Shown piece after piece: positions 10,906 to 20,055 of a stretch of DNA of 21,160 nucleotides (within the stretch, counting starts at the first letter, position 1; each line of letters begins with the position of its first letter). The notes under the pieces are model-generated. The model ran no database searches and was not told the DNA's origin. It saw only the letters and a list, made by a program, of their open reading frames with translations. Location of the stretch: positions 1 through 21,160 of IMG/VR virus record IMGVR_UViG_3300032093_000997. One strand, given 5' to 3'. The translations under genes and the position numbers were made by a program. The stretch is from a virus.

Positions 10906-11364
10906 TTAGCACCATCCCATAACAGGGGCAGGCTCTATGTCTTTGACAACCTCATAGAACTTGCCGTTTTCGTGAAGTGAACCTGCGGTGACAACATATC
11001 CATTGAACTTGATGTCAACGCCATCGCGCAGTTTGCCCTTGAAAGAAGCGCCAATTGGTGCCTGATAGTAGAGATGCAAGCCATCACCTGTTTCAACTGT
11101 GAAGGTGTCAAGGTCTAAGCCTTCGGTGCTTCCGCCGTTGCGGTAATCCACATCAAAGACCACAAGATTTGATGGCGCACAAGCAATGCCAATGTTGAGC
11201 AAGGGCGACTTCTCAAACCACTTTGCAACTGTGGCAGGCTTATTTGAAGCAGACTTATAGCCTTGCTTTGCTATCGGAAAGAATGGAATCTTTTGTTGCG
11301 GATAGCAAGGCAGAACATACCAACCGCGCTTTGCAAAGGCAGTGGCGATTTCGGCAGTTGTCAT
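10906..11364 (-). CDS. Stand-alone Prim-Pol (bifunctional DNA primase/polymerase N-terminal) domain protein
   Basis: A 152-residue protein consisting of little more than a Prim-Pol catalytic core of the archaeo-eukaryotic primase superfamily. The N-terminal AKRGWYVLPCYPQQKIPFF matches the family's opening (G-W-x-V-x-P-C). The metal motif is VVFDVDYRNGG (Asp71, Asp73), the His motif is TGDGLHLYY (His97), and the third acidic motif is DGVDIKFNGYVVTAGS (Asp117). All expected catalytic residues are present. Helicase and C-terminal primase domains are absent. It could make primers, fill gaps or tolerate damage. A second Prim-Pol is fused to a helicase at 16784. Its start overlaps the preceding minus-strand gene as ATGA. 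Confidence 0.82.
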   Translation of the reverse strand: MTTAEIATAFAKRGWYVLPCYPQQKIPFFPIAKQGYKSASNKPATVAKWFEKSPLLNIGIACAPSNLVVFDVDYRNGGSTEGLDLDTFTVETGDGLHLYYQAPIGASFKGKLRDGVDIKFNGYVVTAGSLHENGKFYEVVKDIEPAPVMGWC

Positions 11365-11486
11365 TTGACATACTCCTTTAAGAAGTCATTGATGGCTTCG
11401 GACAATGATTTGCCCTCTGCCCGCGCCCTCGCCTGCGCCTTGCGCCATAGTTGGTCAGATACACGAACGCTTCTAATTTTCTTCAT
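11361..11486 (-). CDS. Ribbon-helix-helix DNA-binding protein
   Basis: A 41-residue protein, MKKIRSVRVSDQLWRKAQAR and onward. The short basic strand RSVRVS is followed by two helices (DQLWRKAQARARAEG and SLSEAINDFLKEYV). This is the minimal ribbon-helix-helix (Arc/CopG-like) layout, in which the strand pairs in a dimer and reads the major groove. It probably regulates this cassette or another early promoter; a target could lie in the divergent gap at 12036-12202. The start is fixed by the TAATG overlap, and the stop overlaps the Prim-Pol start. Confidence 0.75.
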   Translation of the reverse strand: MKKIRSVRVSDQLWRKAQARARAEGKSLSEAINDFLKEYVK

Positions 11487-11704
11487 TATGCACCGACCTT
11501 TGCAAGTTCCAAATCCACATAATCGCCTGTTGATGTGTTGCTGATTCTTATATCTCCATTGGCATAATCCCATCGAAGCAATGTTGGAATACCATCGCAA
11601 TCACTAAGACATTCGCCATATTGGTTTGCATTCTCAATGTCTGTTTGCTTGTCACTTGACCAATCACAAACTAAGCAAGTCACTTTTTCAATGTTGCTTG
11701 TCAT
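11486..11704 (-). CDS. Small Cys-containing protein of unknown function
   Basis: A 72-residue acidic protein (MTSNIEKVTCLVCDWSSDKQ and onward) with C-L-V-C near the N-terminus and G-E-C-L-S-D-C in the middle, four cysteines that could bind one zinc. The second half is probably beta-stranded (LRWDYANGDIRISNTSTGDYV). It ends in A-K-V-G-A, the same ending as two other proteins of the cassette because the repeated junction sequence encodes it. I do not recognise a family. Small acidic early phage proteins are often host-takeover or anti-defence factors, but nothing here proves that. Confidence 0.65.
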   Translation of the reverse strand: MTSNIEKVTCLVCDWSSDKQTDIENANQYGECLSDCDGIPTLLRWDYANGDIRISNTSTGDYVDLELAKVGA

Positions 11705-11835
11705 TATGCACCGACCTTTTGGCATTCGTGCCAATCAAGATTGGCTACATCCCAAGAGCTAGTCATCTCATAAGTTCTACCGCAGTATTCGCAGGTTGCA
11801 GATACAACGCCTGCTTCTGATTTATGCCATTTCAT
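11704..11835 (-). CDS. 43-residue zinc-finger-like micro-protein
   Basis: A short gene filling the space between two cassette members, with TAATG overlaps at both ends. It encodes MKWHKSEAGVVSATCEYCGR, continues through YEMTSSWDVANLDWHEC and ends in Q-K-V-G-A. C-x-x-C followed by a late H-x-C (HEC) makes a C-C-H-C zinc-ribbon or finger pattern. Tight coupling on both sides and a coherent zinc motif support a real gene. The function is unknown; small zinc fingers usually bind nucleic acid or protein partners. Confidence 0.7.
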   Translation of the reverse strand: MKWHKSEAGVVSATCEYCGRTYEMTSSWDVANLDWHECQKVGA

Positions 11836-12035
11836 TATGCACCTACCTTTGCAGATACAAACGCATCGTAAAACTTCCAAAATTTATTTTGCTTTGCTTC
11901 TGTTTGCTTTGCAAGTAGCTCGAGAATTGCCCAACGATTTTGACTGTTGTTGTTGTAAGCATCAAGTAGAGCATCTGCCATTTCAGGAAACTCTGAAATT
12001 TTAAGATTGTTTGTGATTCGTGTTGTGCTGACCAT
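11835..12035 (-). CDS. First gene of the minus-strand cassette, small helical protein of unknown function
   Basis: A 66-residue protein, MVSTTRITNNLKISEFPEMA and onward, predicted mostly helical (ADALLDAYNN, WAILELLAKQTEAKQNKFWK, FYDAFVSA) and ending in A-K-V-G-A. The ATG at 12035 has GGAAGAAG just upstream. Longer in-frame extensions to 12119 would cross the promoter-like element and are not favoured. No family was recognised. As the promoter-proximal gene of a divergent early cassette it should be the most strongly expressed of the six. Confidence 0.7.
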   Translation of the reverse strand: MVSTTRITNNLKISEFPEMADALLDAYNNNSQNRWAILELLAKQTEAKQNKFWKFYDAFVSAKVGA

Positions 12036-14208: not shown

Positions 14209-14285
14209 GCATTCCTTATGTGAATCCTATTGAGCCAATCGTGCCAATAATTCCTGATTATGATGATGAAGAAGAGGATGATTGA
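14205..14285 (+). CDS. 26-residue acidic micro-protein
   Basis: A mini-gene precisely fitted between two genes by an ATGA overlap on its left and a TGATG overlap on its right. It encodes MSIPYVNPIEPIVPIIPDYD followed by D-E-E-E-D-D. The first half is Pro/Ile-rich and the end is a run of acidic residues. The exact double overlap argues for translation, either for a product or to carry ribosomes to the nuclease start. An acidic tail could mimic DNA or contact a DNA-binding protein. No family is known to me. Confidence 0.5.
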   Translation: MSIPYVNPIEPIVPIIPDYDDEEEDD

Positions 14286-15694: not shown

Positions 15695-15702
15695 ATGTGA
15701 AA

Positions 15703-15733
15703 GCAAGGCGGTTTCCTTCCGTCATCGCCTTGC
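15703..15733 (+). other. 8-bp perfect hairpin after the ssDNA-binding-like gene
   Basis: GCAAGGCG (15703-15710) pairs perfectly with CGCCTTGC (15726-15733) around a 15-base loop. It begins eight bases after the stop codon at 15694. No T-run follows, so it is not a typical intrinsic terminator; it could slow or stabilise the 3' end, or be the first element of the structured region that continues to 15837. Confidence 0.6.
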
Positions 15734-15740
15734 ATCATAA

Positions 15741-15773
15741 GGTTGCCTGTGTCCTACCTTTCCACGGGCAACC
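15741..15773 (+). other. 11-bp hairpin in the non-coding gap
   Basis: GGTTGCCTGTG (15741-15751) pairs with CACGGGCAACC (15763-15773) along 11 pairs with a single T-G wobble, around an 11-base loop. This is the strongest stem in the 15695-15864 gap and is too long and perfect to be a casual match. No T-run follows. Confidence 0.65.
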
Positions 15774-15775
15774 AA

Positions 15776-15837
15776 GCAGTGCTTGGGAGCGATGAGATAC
15801 GGGGTCATTCATCGGCAGGTTCGATTCCTGCCACTGC
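15776..15837 (+). ncRNA. tRNA-like fold (T arm and acceptor stem, no D arm)
   Basis: The 3' part carries a canonical tRNA T arm: stem GCAGG/CCTGC (15815-15819, 15827-15831) around TTCGATT, including the invariant G-TTC-x-A pattern. The six bases after it, CACTGC (15832-15837), pair with GCAGTG (15776-15781), exactly like an acceptor stem closing the fold. Between them is only one further stem, CGATGA/TCATCG (15790-15795, 15809-15814), with a 13-base loop. The 33 bases between acceptor and T arm are too few for D and anticodon arms plus a variable loop, and no CCA follows, so this is not a normal tRNA. Alternatives are a tRNA remnant, a tRNA mimic, or an attachment site copied from a host tRNA 3' end. 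Confidence 0.45.
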
Positions 15838-15864
15838 ACTCGACAATCAAAGTCAGGGGGTTTT

Positions 15865-16783: not shown

Positions 16784-18850
16784 ATGACAATGACGGGGGA
16801 AATCTTACGAACGGGCCTTGAGTTCGCTGCCAATGGCATCTGTGCGGTGCCGGTGGCAACTGATGGTTCTAAAAGGCCTGCTCTTGCCAATTGGAAGCTC
16901 TATCAAGAACGCCTGCCAACACCTGATGAGTTGTTGACTTGGTTTACAAAGGCCGAAGGTGTCGGTGTTATCTGTGGCAAGGTATCAGGCAACCTTGAGA
17001 TGTTGGAACTTGAAGGAAGAGCAGTTGCCGACAAGATGCACCTTGACTTGAAAGAAATGGCAAATAATGCAGGCCTTGGCGATGTATGGGATCGCATCAA
17101 CAATGGTTATGTAGAGATGACTCCATCGGGCGGAATCCATTGGCTCTATCGCATTGACGGCGAGGTTCCTGGCAACACCAAACTTGCAAGAAGACCTGGC
17201 GAAAATGGCGGGATAGATGTCTTAGCCGAAACAAGAGGCGAAGGCGGCTTTGTCATTGTCGCGCCATCGCAAGGGCCTTGCCATCCTTCGGGCGGAGCTT
17301 GGAAGATGCTTGTTGGCGGCGCCGGTAGCATCCCGACACTGACGGTCGCCGAGCGCGACCAACTCCACAAATTATTTGAAACCTTTGACTCAGTTCCCAA
17401 GGTCGAGTTTGTCACCGAAGAACTTGCGCCAAAAGGTGTCAATTTAACTCCTGGCGATGATTACAACTCCAAAGTCACTTGGGAGCAGATACTTGAGCCT
17501 TTAGGTTGGGCGAAGGTCTATACGAACAAGGCAGGTGTGACCTCTTGGAGAAGACCAGGCAAGTCTGAAGGCATCAGCGCCACCACAAATCACGCGGGCA
17601 ATGACAAGTTCTATGTCTTTTCAAGTAGCACACAGTTTGAAGCTGAGCGAAGTTATAGCAAGTTCGCCGTCTTCACCATCGTTGAACATCAGGGCGACTT
17701 CACCGCCTCTGCCAAGGCTCTGCGCGAGCAAGGCTATGGCGAGGCACGCAAAGAGCTTCAGACCTTAGAAGTCCACTCACCTGCCTTAGTTCAACTCCAC
17801 GATGAAGAAGGCCAACCTTTTGAGTCATCTTGGATACCTAAACAGATTGCAGAGTTAGACCTAGAAGATGAAAACCCGCCATCAATGCTTAGACGAGAAG
17901 ATGGGAACTCTCTTTTATATGCAGGCAAGATAAATGCCATCTTCGGTGAATCTGAAAGCGGTAAGACTTGGCTCGCATTGGAAGCAATAAGGCAAGAACT
18001 TGCCAAGAACAATATCGTTTTCTATTTAGACTTTGAAGACTCGGCAAGAGGCATTCTTAATCGCCTAAAGACAATGAAGGTGCCAACAGATAAGTTCAAG
18101 TTCTTCAGGTATGCAAACCCTGACTCCAAACTCGAAGCAGGTGTTGGCGAATTGATGAAGACTGAGATTATGGCCTACCTGCCAAGCCTCATTGTCGTTG
18201 ATGGTGTCAATGCCGCGATGAACCTGATGGGTCTTGATTTAGAGAAGAATAAGGATGCAACCTTCTTCTCACAGACAATCTTGAAGCCTCTTAGGATCGG
18301 TGGCGCTGGCATTCTCACCATCGACCATGTCACCAAATCAAAGGACAACCGAGGCAACTATGCCATCGGAGCCCAAGCCAAGAGAGCTGACATTGATGGG
18401 GCGGCCTTTGCCGTGTCGGTGGCGATGCCATTTGGCAGAGGCATTGACGGAGCCCTTGACATAACTTGCACCAAGGATCGGCCTGGCTTTGTCCGTGCCA
18501 TCTGCCCTGATGCCAAGACTGTCGGCGTTGCCAACCTAAGAAGCCTTCCTGATGGCGGTATCTCGGTGTCAATATCAGGTGGAATTGCCAAGGTTTCTAC
18601 AAGGGAACAGAAGATGGAAGCGGTTTGCGATTTACTTAGAAGAGTCGGCCACGAAATCGGCAGGAATCAGATTGCTGAGCACATGCGCGAGGCAGGTCAT
18701 TCCATTGCCAATGATGAGCTGAAATATGTCATTGAAGCTCTAGTTGCCAAGGGTTCCTTGACCTATCGCAAGGATGGTCAGAAGTATCTTTATGGCTATC
18801 AAAGCGACTTCTATGCCAATGATGTCAAGCCTTGGACTCCCAATGTCTAA
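16784..18850 (+). CDS. Primase-helicase: Prim-Pol domain fused to RecA-like ATPase
   Basis: A 688-residue replication protein. Residues about 10-200 are a Prim-Pol domain: NGICAVPVATDGSKRPAL opening, LEMLELEGRA (acidic pair 75-77, E-L-E rather than the usual D-x-D), SGGIHWLYRI (His motif, about 114-123), and GIDVLAETRGEGGFVIVAPS (third acidic motif). A linker domain spans about 220-330. The ATPase has Walker A AIFGESESGKTW (about 385-396), FYLDFED, Walker B SLIVVDGVN (about 467-475) and ILTIDHVTK, as in RepA/KaiC-like helicases. Residues about 605-680 form a winged helix (GRNQIAEHMREAGH). It probably unwinds and primes the phage origin; the repeat array right after the gene is a likely target. 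A second ATG two codons on (16790) is equally possible. Confidence 0.9.
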   Translation: MTMTGEILRTGLEFAANGICAVPVATDGSKRPALANWKLYQERLPTPDELLTWFTKAEGVGVICGKVSGNLEMLELEGRAVADKMHLDLKEMANNAGLGDVWDRINNGYVEMTPSGGIHWLYRIDGEVPGNTKLARRPGENGGIDVLAETRGEGGFVIVAPSQGPCHPSGGAWKMLVGGAGSIPTLTVAERDQLHKLFETFDSVPKVEFVTEELAPKGVNLTPGDDYNSKVTWEQILEPLGWAKVYTNKAGVTSWRRPGKSEGISATTNHAGNDKFYVFSSSTQFEAERSYSKFAVFTIVEHQGDFTASAKALREQGYGEARKELQTLEVHSPALVQLHDEEGQPFESSWIPKQIAELDLEDENPPSMLRREDGNSLLYAGKINAIFGESESGKTWLALEAIRQELAKNNIVFYLDFEDSARGILNRLKTMKVPTDKFKFFRYANPDSKLEAGVGELMKTEIMAYLPSLIVVDGVNAAMNLMGLDLEKNKDATFFSQTILKPLRIGGAGILTIDHVTKSKDNRGNYAIGAQAKRADIDGAAFAVSVAMPFGRGIDGALDITCTKDRPGFVRAICPDAKTVGVANLRSLPDGGISVSISGGIAKVSTREQKMEAVCDLLRRVGHEIGRNQIAEHMREAGHSIANDELKYVIEALVAKGSLTYRKDGQKYLYGYQSDFYANDVKPWTPNV

Positions 18851-18982
18851 CTGTTCCGCCGTTCCGCAACTGTTCCGCACTATTCCACGGAACACCACCG
18901 ACAAGAGTGTCCAAACTGTTCCGCCGTTCCCCCTCTTTAGAGGGGAACGCGGAACAGTGGAACAGTCACCCAAAGGGAACAG
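18851..18982. repeat. Direct and inverted GTTCC/GGAAC repeat array, candidate replication origin/operator
   Basis: This 132-base gap after the primase-helicase gene has no convincing gene. CTGTTCC occurs at 18851, 18870 and 18916; its complement GGAACAG occurs at 18951, 18959 and 18976. Partial copies (GTTCC or GGAAC) lie at 18861, 18889, 18926 and 18944. The 15-base CTGTTCCGCCGTTCC is present twice, at 18851-18865 and 18916-18930. All right-hand copies are inverted relative to the left-hand ones. Iteron-like arrays beside a Rep/primase gene are typical of origins; an operator is the alternative. The last copy abuts the next ATG. Confidence 0.7.
18916..18957 (+). other. Long imperfect hairpin within the repeat array
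   Basis: Bases 18916-18936 pair with 18939-18957: 19 base pairs with two bulged C residues on the left arm and a two-base turn (TT). It starts with CTGTTCCG and ends with CGGAACAG. As DNA it could extrude a cruciform; as RNA it could be a strong 3' structure for the primase-helicase message, but no T-run follows. Confidence 0.75.
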
Positions 18983-19315
18983 ATGAATCAAGATTTCAAA
19001 CCTATAAATTGCTCAAGGTGTGGCGCACTCATTTGGGCAGGGATTAGTTGGGCTGGCTTTGCTCGCCGACTTGATACCCCTGTCCTTACCATTGAGGAAG
19101 AGATAATTAAACGGATCAACAAGGTGATGACCTTTGAGTGTCACAAGACCAAGGTGTCCTTTGAGGCGGTTGAGAGAAGTGCCAACCGAATCAAGTGGGG
19201 CAAGACCAAGAGGTCAGTCATTTTGGGAGAGCATCACTGTTCCTCATTCAAACTCTTTGAAGTGACACCGCCGAACTATTGGAAAGAACTCGACTACATA
19301 GGAAGGCCGTTTTGA
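18983..19315 (+). CDS. Zinc-finger-containing phage protein of unknown function
   Basis: A 110-residue protein with an N-terminal INCSRCGALIWAGISWAGFA segment, one C-x-x-C half site and a conserved-looking L-I-W-x-G pair, followed by DTPVLTIEEEI. Later Cys53 and His54 (FECHKTKVSF) and a third site (GEHHCSSF) could complete zinc binding. This pattern occurs in small actinophage proteins near replication genes, of unknown role. The ATG is preceded by AAAGGGAACAG, which is also the last copy of the upstream repeat, so a protein bound to the repeat could block its translation or transcription. Its stop overlaps the next start (TGATG). Confidence 0.72.
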   Translation: MNQDFKPINCSRCGALIWAGISWAGFARRLDTPVLTIEEEIIKRINKVMTFECHKTKVSFEAVERSANRIKWGKTKRSVILGEHHCSSFKLFEVTPPNYWKELDYIGRPF

Positions 19316-20055
19316 TGCAATGTTTAGTCTGTAAAAAAGAAACTGACGGCGAGTGTCGCAGTTGCTTCGGTCGCCTGCGAGCTACCTTGAAGGAGTTGCC
19401 ACAGTTGCAGTTTGAGGCAGGGTTCTTCCTAGAGCCATCACGCACCGGCAGTGGCGTGGTCAGCGCCGAACGCTCTATCGGTATCAATGTCAATGCCTTG
19501 GACTTCTCAATGGCAACTGACCTTCTTGCCATCCTTCACGGATGGGAGCAGATTGTTAGGCGCGATAGGCAGTTGACACCGCCTGCGCTACTAACCAGGG
19601 AGAGGACTACTGACCTTGAGGTCTTGGCAACCTGCGAGTTCCACATCGCCCACCTTTCTTGGACATTGACTCAGCCGTGGGCGTTAGACTTCGCAGGGGA
19701 AGTTTGGGGGCTACACGCGCGGGGTCGTGCAGCCGCCAAAAAGTTCAAAGAACAGGCAAGAAGGATTCCTTGTCCGACAGATGATTGCAAGCGTTTTGTC
19801 GTCATTGATGTCGAACAAATGTCACAAGATGTCAGTTGCTTTGGATGCAAACAAAGTTGGTCGGTCTTGAGATTGGTGGCACTAGCAATGAGCAATCCGA
19901 ATCGCAGATTCTTTCTCGACATCGAGGCCATTGCTGCATGGCTACAAATGACAGAGCGAGAGGTTTACCGAGCAGTTAAGAAGTTTGGAATTGAAAAGCG
20001 GGGCTCTACTTACGATCTCCAAGCCTTAATGAAAGTGAGGCAACAAAATGCCTAG
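19315..20055 (+). CDS. Zinc-ribbon/HTH protein, conserved actinophage type
   Basis: A 246-residue protein. The N-terminus MQCLVCKKETDGECRSC has Cys3, Cys6, Cys14 and Cys17, a compact zinc ribbon. The middle is helical (ATDLLAILHGWEQIVRRDRQ, then LATCEFHIAHLSWTLTQ and VWGLHARGRAAAKKFKE). A second zinc ribbon follows (IPCPTDDCKRFV and SCFGCKQSW). The last 45 residues form a helix-turn-helix (IEAIAAWLQMTEREVYRAVK) like MerR/excisionase-type DNA-binding domains. It probably binds DNA as a regulator or replication accessory. GGAAGG lies before the ATG at 19315; an upstream alternative start at 19279 would lie inside the preceding gene. Confidence 0.78.
   Translation: MQCLVCKKETDGECRSCFGRLRATLKELPQLQFEAGFFLEPSRTGSGVVSAERSIGINVNALDFSMATDLLAILHGWEQIVRRDRQLTPPALLTRERTTDLEVLATCEFHIAHLSWTLTQPWALDFAGEVWGLHARGRAAAKKFKEQARRIPCPTDDCKRFVVIDVEQMSQDVSCFGCKQSWSVLRLVALAMSNPNRRFFLDIEAIAAWLQMTEREVYRAVKKFGIEKRGSTYDLQALMKVRQQNA

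Follow-up and report, generated by a model that had tools for sequence, protein, structure and literature searches.

A candidate iteron-type replication origin directly 3′ of a phage primase-helicase gene, with repeats that change together with the C-terminal winged helix of the enzyme

In the 21,160-base viral DNA stretch analyzed here (hereafter, the window), the gene of a 688-residue replication protein (16784–18850, + strand) is followed by a 132-base gap crowded with short inverted repeats (18851–18982, assigned to neither strand); the question is what this array does and which protein reads it. Based on Pfam, PHROG and AF2, the protein combines a Prim-Pol domain (residues 12–172; PF09250, E 6.5e-12), an AAA_25/RepA-type helicase domain (residues 376–520; PF13481, E 9.7e-7) and a C-terminal winged helix, and its PHROG families are primases. 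The winged-helix segment (residues 606–688; 18599–18847, + strand), which AF2 and the co-variation described below mark as the putative exchanged specificity domain, was modeled with helices at residues 607–621, 627–636 and 643–655 and strands at 659–664 and 667–672; the recognition helix thus corresponds approximately to residues 643–655, and the two strands form the wing. The pLDDT was 84–88 over most of the segment in the full-length model, and the segment modeled alone gave a mean pLDDT of 84.7 and a pTM of 0.73. Outside the last 80 residues, the AF2 model of the full protein was poor; therefore, no claim on ring geometry is made from it. A fold search of the winged helix against solved structures returned generic winged helices (Hop2, Zur/Fur, BlaI/MecI, PadR), mostly of transcription regulators; no origin-binding initiator was among the matches listed, which is no evidence against one, and a sequence search with the primase alignment found no solved structure. 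The next gene (18983–19315, + strand) encodes a 110-residue protein of PHROG 10480, a family of unknown function, and marks the right border of the exchanged block. The window also contains a WhiB-like gene and hence probably derives from a phage of Actinobacteria. A second, stand-alone Prim-Pol of 152 residues (Pfam E 5.6e-27), with neither helicase nor winged helix, is encoded at 10906–11364 (− strand).

Exact-copy counting identified six full iterons in the gap, as the first-pass annotation had stated: CTGTTCC at 18851–18857, 18870–18876 and 18916–18922 (+ strand), and GGAACAG at 18951–18957, 18959–18965 and 18976–18982 (− strand), the last of which touches the start codon of the gene at 18983. 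Additionally, the gap sequence contains the partial iterons GTTCC at 18861–18865 and at 18926–18930 (+ strand), the latter running into the hairpin stem, and GGAAC at 18889–18893, within GGAACA, and at 18944–18948 (− strand), the latter on the opposite side of the stem. The GTTCC/GGAAC cores thus amount to ten, five per direction, a count shared by near-identical relatives and in agreement with the at least four partial copies noted earlier. The symmetry that had been described holds for the full copies, the three on the left pointing right and the three on the right pointing left, and is broken by the partial GGAAC at 18889, the lone reversed copy of the left side. The unit that had been reported as a 15-base repeat is actually 17 bases long, AACTGTTCCGCCGTTCC, and occurs at 18849 and 18914. 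By inverted-repeat search and folding, we localized a GC-rich hairpin or near-palindrome core, CCCCTCTTTAGAGGGG, at 18930–18945, in the middle of an extended inverted repeat (18915–18934/18939–18958); the first-pass annotation does not mention it.

The whole window contains nine copies of CTGTTCC/GGAACAG versus 2.8 expected from dinucleotide shuffles, none of 100 of which reached nine, and the second-best 132-bp stretch holds one copy versus the six of the array. A null based on unfiltered k-mer clusters was discarded, being confounded by low-complexity words. The prediction that the cluster would be unique was borne out, since nothing comparable was found elsewhere in the record or in the full records of relatives, in whose full or longer records the array motifs are almost confined to the array. 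The gap is not, as had been claimed, the only non-coding stretch on the right; 15695–15864 (170 bp) and 14209–14281 are also free of listed major ORFs. A different repeat, AAAGGT[CA]GGTGCATAATG, occurs three times on the − strand (11484–11501, 11702–11719 and 11833–11850) and in each case bridges the stop codon of one small gene and the start of the next, which gives the upstream protein the C terminus KVGA; it looks like a repeated translation-coupling element.

In iteron origins, an AT-rich unwinding element is usual, although not universal, and many, but not all, include a DnaA box. What was found here is a cluster of short repeats, unique in its replicon and located beside a putative initiator gene, the arrangement by which an iteron origin is recognized. 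No AT-rich unwinding stretch was found in the array, which is 57% GC versus 47% overall, nor any strongly AT-rich 50-bp bin in 18500–19400 (lowest GC, 0.40). The GC-skew switch that the first-pass annotation had anticipated did not appear, as neither the window nor four relatives of 30–34 kb showed a clear one at the array; with no consistent signal in these five, skew was rejected as an origin marker. Strict and loose searches found no DnaA box in the window, and an argument for its origin from skew or DnaA was dropped accordingly. In relatives, a perfect DnaA box, TTATCCACA, lies within 250 bp of the array in all nine of those at 60% identity and in all of type E (defined below), and perfect boxes also adjoin the arrays of four chromosomal elements, against a background of 0.003–0.03 per 500 bp; the boxes are clustered by lineage and therefore represent few independent cases. 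LPVDN, the peptide at the C terminus of the primase, is specified by CCTGTGGATAAC in L089, L090, L092, L127 and L132. This stretch includes a perfect DnaA box (TTATCCACA reversed) in type E and, as judged by eye, in L127/L132, and coding sequence may here also serve as a piece of the origin.

Two scans of viral contigs yielded more than 80 contigs with relatives of the 688-residue protein (63–98% identical). More than 60 contigs of related phages have the array at the same place and with the same arrangement, and among close relatives with a sequenced gap the conservation that had been proposed as a check was observed. In contigs reaching past the gene, the array sits in the gap after the primase gene or beyond an inserted gene. 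In most, three repeats in one direction are followed by one reversed copy, a spacer, one or two copies in the first direction, the hairpin and at least two reversed copies. The repeat unit differs between relatives and is altered as a set rather than copy by copy. We distinguished five types: type A, that of the window, with unit CTGTTCCG, interchangeable with CCGTTCCG; type B, CTGTTTCCC; type C, ACCGAACCT; type D, CTGTTCC[CT]; and type E, CCGCGCCGAACC. A split of type A into CTGTTCC and CCGTTCC was abandoned because the nearly identical domains of L062 and L067 use either letter. Judged by eye, the spacers of type A and type B arrays can be aligned, while the repeats differ at matching positions. 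When dense GTTCC clusters were sought by DNA pattern alone, nine of 11 sat 3′ of primases with 60–62% identity. No primase-less array with the repeat of the window, as in a satellite, was established; two contigs (L236 and L290) have dense GTTCC clusters and no primase akin to that of the window in the fetched stretch. In L166, the hairpin and CTGTTC iterons lie inside a 1314-residue open frame rather than in a gap.

Only the last approximately 83 residues of the primase-helicase change with the repeat type, residues 1–600 (the body) being insensitive to it. Thus, genomes 98–99.7% identical over the body bear unrelated winged helices and a different repeat. The body and winged-helix differences are 0.3% and 58% for L027/L037, 0.7% and 61% for L004/L010, in which the downstream 110-residue protein is identical, 0.7% and 40% for L019/L025, and 1.7% and 54% for L078/L084, and in all four pairs the iterons differ. 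The swapped block is approximately 400 bp long and combines the array with about 270 bp from the 3′ end of the coding sequence. In pairs with short arrays, its borders lie at about −270/−300 and +110/+130 relative to the stop codon; it starts nearer 180 bases before the stop in L019/L025, and its right border is further away where one array is longer. DNA identity in the pairs is roughly 88–100% outside the block and about 50–65% inside.

The partial Mantel correlation with iteron type, given body distance, was −0.09 to 0.09 in ten 60-residue body segments, 0.56–0.71 for residues 605–664, with a peak at 637–648, and 0.12 for the downstream protein; the permutation p for the winged-helix domain was 0.001. 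Counted by parsimony on quick trees, and thus not as dated events, the body tree requires 14 changes of iteron type and the winged-helix tree five, the minimum being four; in the subset of 34 genomes with the downstream protein, the counts were nine for the body, nine for the downstream protein and five for the winged helix, with a mean of approximately 16 for shuffled labels. The positions with the highest mutual information with iteron type include 642–644, where the third helix begins, and 661, 663 and 664, in the wing, and further winged-helix positions also rank high. Winged helices usually contact DNA at the start of the recognition helix and at the wing. Residue 643 is N in 15 of 15 type A representatives, D in six of six of type B and S or G in 15 of 15 of type C, and residue 642 is K in six of six of type B. 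Type A winged helices down to 49% identity retain GTTCCG, whereas those of type B, 68–75% identical to that of the window, accompany GTTTCCC; the winged helix of L023, a type A genome, is 69% identical to that of the window. Overall winged-helix similarity is therefore a poorer guide to iteron type than the key residues.

In three genomes, inserts separate the primase gene from the array, and the match between domain and repeat is retained. The inserts are a 174-codon ORF with a DPPY motif (L034, 8043–8564), a 272-codon ORF that is reductase-like by eye (L069, 8051–8866), and a tRNA-Gly plus an ORF (L082, 8063–8638); the sequence just past the stop codon of the primase gene may serve as an insertion site.

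Among the candidate readers, co-variation singles out the winged helix as the likely one. The first-pass annotation had proposed the primase-helicase, its winged helix or a neighboring zinc/HTH protein; the winged helix was upheld, and the product of 18983–19315 was not, as it co-varies no more than the rest of the genome. The same pattern might arise by linkage alone, if a recombination hot spot swapped the 3′ end of the gene and the gap while another host or phage protein recognized the repeats. The inclusion of domain and array in one block with shared borders is what this explanation predicts. Nevertheless, we regard it as improbable: the protein gene that flanks the array at an equal distance on its far side does not follow the type; the best-tracking residues are in the recognition helix and wing; type A domains 51% different share one repeat, while the 25% different type B does not; and the pairing of domain and repeat outlasts insertions. 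Neighboring sequences swapped as a unit co-vary through linkage alone, an objection that the downstream-protein control and the residue-level evidence reduce without eliminating.

The layout extends beyond this family. The central 16-mer CCCCTCTTTAGAGGGG was found in at least 119 stretches of viral contigs, versus 11 for a permuted palindrome of equal composition. Among the matches listed, 54 of 86 distinct 16-mer sites, some of them belonging to the window's own family, are flanked by at least five copies of some 6-mer, a density reached at 2.75% of random positions in those contigs and at none of ten control sites. The flanking 6-mers vary (GTGACA, CGTACC, AATGAG, CATGAC, GTTACA, TCTTCA, ATTGCA, CGTTAC, CAGACA, ATTACC and others), and the large proteins encoded beside the sites carry AAA_25 with Prim-Pol, Toprim, DnaG-type zinc plus Toprim, or PriCT-2. 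In 27 of 30 iteron-bearing records, an AAA_25 gene faces the hairpin with its 3′ side, 26 being within 1 kb of the domain, versus four of 20 records with few or no iterons (Fisher p about 7e-7); these 50 records were hand-picked to cover iteron sequences, so the fractions describe the selection. A literature search for the 16-mer returned unrelated papers alone. Other GC stems, most of them TA-rich at the tip, take its place in type B, L007, L035, Microcystis phage MinS1 and marine phages.

Of 46 distant Prim-Pol genes in bacterial chromosomes, picked by protein similarity alone, 27 are followed within 250 bp 3′ by six or more copies of a 6-mer, and one is preceded by such a cluster within 250 bp 5′; among other bins, 13 of 1695 contain one (p 2e-37). 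These arrays, built from 19 different 6-mers, independently confirm the position 3′ of the gene. Cultured phages with iterons 3′ of the primase gene include Salicola phage CGphi29 (GGGACA), Idiomarinaceae phage 1N2-2 (GGTACA, 11 copies), Alteromonas phage PB15 (GGTTCA, 13 copies), Arthrobacter phages Peas and Karkharias (AGTGAC) and MinS1 (GGACGA). The rule has exceptions, since Caulobacter phage GB2A, the circular record ct76p945 and Arthrobacter phage Shambre1 have no array 3′ of the gene. In Peas, the AGTGAC array lies inside an annotated hypothetical gene immediately following the primase (gp61; L059, 7475–7816), and likewise in L061; this gene call may be spurious.

Could the array be an operator instead, bound by the winged helix to control transcription or translation of the genes from 18983 on rather than replication? 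Its position between two same-strand genes, with the last repeat at the start codon of the second, and the regulators among the structural neighbors of the winged helix fit this proposal. We consider it unlikely, as predicted promoters and terminators were at or below shuffled expectation and the gap contained neither, many lineages have quite different or oppositely oriented genes beyond the array, and DnaA boxes adjoin some sister arrays. A dual use, as origin and for autoregulation, is possible.

The single strand of the array region folds far better than shuffles, also as RNA (z −6.2), as would be expected of a structured leader, a processing site or a terminator-like hairpin in an intergenic transcript. 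We give such an RNA element very little credence: the DNA fold is as strong (z −7.7), and the fold follows from the inverted iterons; no T run after the stem and no Rfam match were found for the array; and the left direct repeats, unneeded for a hairpin, change along with the rest. A packaging or termini site (cos/pac) would suit an array that, in the window as in the records of several relatives, is about 2 kb away from the right end. Such a site is nonetheless scarcely credible, as the array co-varies with a replication enzyme, and in other lineages the layout is often far from contig ends. The distance of about 2 kb from the same end recurs in several independent contigs (the window, G001–G004, G006 and G007), which suggests that these genomes have a fixed end, physical or due to assembly, shortly after the HNH gene.

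We conclude that the array is probably an iteron-type origin located directly 3′ of its own initiator gene and read by the C-terminal winged helix of that enzyme. The role of candidate origin assigned at first is supported by uniqueness and conservation and seems right as far as the sequence tells. From these patterns we infer how such an origin might work. The 688-residue protein would bind the iterons through the recognition helix and wing of its winged helix, and the two groups of sites facing the central GC hairpin would set two helicase rings head to head; the helicase would then open the DNA, and the Prim-Pol domain would prime. A single recombination of approximately 400 bp could switch replicon specificity without breaking the match, because the domain that presumably reads the address is encoded beside it. 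Exchange of the putative reader and address as a block has, to judge from the genomes compared, happened many times.

More broadly, we lean toward the view that these loci represent a widespread, unnamed class of origins in phages and mobile elements, with a GC hairpin and lineage-specific iterons 3′ of an AAA_25 helicase gene (with a Prim-Pol, Toprim, DnaG-like or PriCT primase), a C-terminal winged-helix reader and cassette exchange, possibly as an escape from replication parasites, origin-directed nucleases or co-infecting competitors. The parts are of known kind; compared with the open-access literature, what appears to be new is that the probable reader and its address are swapped together in a single block at the gene's 3′ end, that lineages have a hairpin core in common and that the layout is so broadly distributed. 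Earlier proposals held that winged helices at the ends of phage primase-helicases recognize origins and left those origins unidentified; here, a candidate origin is legible from sequence, also in phages with cultured hosts. Since address and probable reader are traded jointly, the start-site rules of the enzyme become directly testable, and near-identical enzymes with five addresses form a natural panel for testing winged-helix site specificity and a one-step change of replicon identity. Additionally, a simple rule emerges for locating candidate origins of many uncultured phages and integrated elements.

An origin is the natural reading because of known parallels (P4 alpha, pRN1, SaPI/Cch2 and PLE RepA), and the best reading of the proposed origin is that it resembles those of P4 alpha and SaPI in logic, with a hairpin core and exchangeable specificity added. 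In lambdoid phages, initiator-iteron pairs (O/ori) differ between related phages, as in the window family. For lambda itself, the iterons are located within the initiator gene, and it is a host helicase that is loaded. O-ori binding in Stx phages is among the subjects treated in PMC7466680. The archaeo-eukaryotic primases (AEP) of PrimQH and related families combine a primase with a RepA-type or other ATPase and a C-terminal winged helix, the last of which was proposed to recognize origins (Kazlauskas 2018, PMC5862659); that study identifies no origin, and the word iteron is absent from its main text. The window protein, with Prim-Pol and AAA_25 domains (Pfam) and a winged helix (AF2), may be PrimQH-like. 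The winged helix of the P4 alpha protein is C-terminal. That protein joins a Toprim primase, a helicase and a winged helix binding origin repeats in one polypeptide (PMC4234260); the window protein has the same three parts, also with the winged helix at the C terminus, but an archaeo-eukaryotic Prim-Pol (PF09250) and a different, AAA_25 helicase, and its family adds the central hairpin and the natural exchange of the domain with the repeats. ORF904 of the crenarchaeal plasmid pRN1 likewise combines Prim-Pol, helicase and a C-terminal winged helix, and an essential stem-loop with low sequence conservation lies just downstream (PMC4234260). The window family also has a conserved stem-loop downstream of its Prim-Pol gene; pRN1 differs in its SF3 helicase, its 100-nt stem-loop and, explicitly, in having no iterons.

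The position of the array has a counterpart in SaPIs, whose origin is directly downstream of rep, and in SCCmec, where the C-terminal domain of Cch2 binds its direct repeats (PMC7581432). Both share with the window a helicase C-terminal domain and iterons directly downstream of the helicase's own gene, binding having been shown for Cch2; they have other helicases and no fused Prim-Pol, and that account contains neither the exchange series nor the hairpin core seen in the window family. The exchange itself is paralleled by the Vibrio satellite PLE, in which RepA is conserved except for its DNA-binding domain, which varies in step with the iterons of the origin; only cognate pairs replicate, and swapping has occurred repeatedly, with the phage nuclease Odn as the likely driver (PMC8263062). 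PLE is a satellite rather than a phage and has no helicase-primase fusion; the RepA_N domain that is swapped there occupies the opposite terminus of the protein, and its origin lies in a separate non-coding region. In the window family, too, the putative DNA-binding domain co-varies with the iterons; for PLE, cognate specificity has been demonstrated experimentally.
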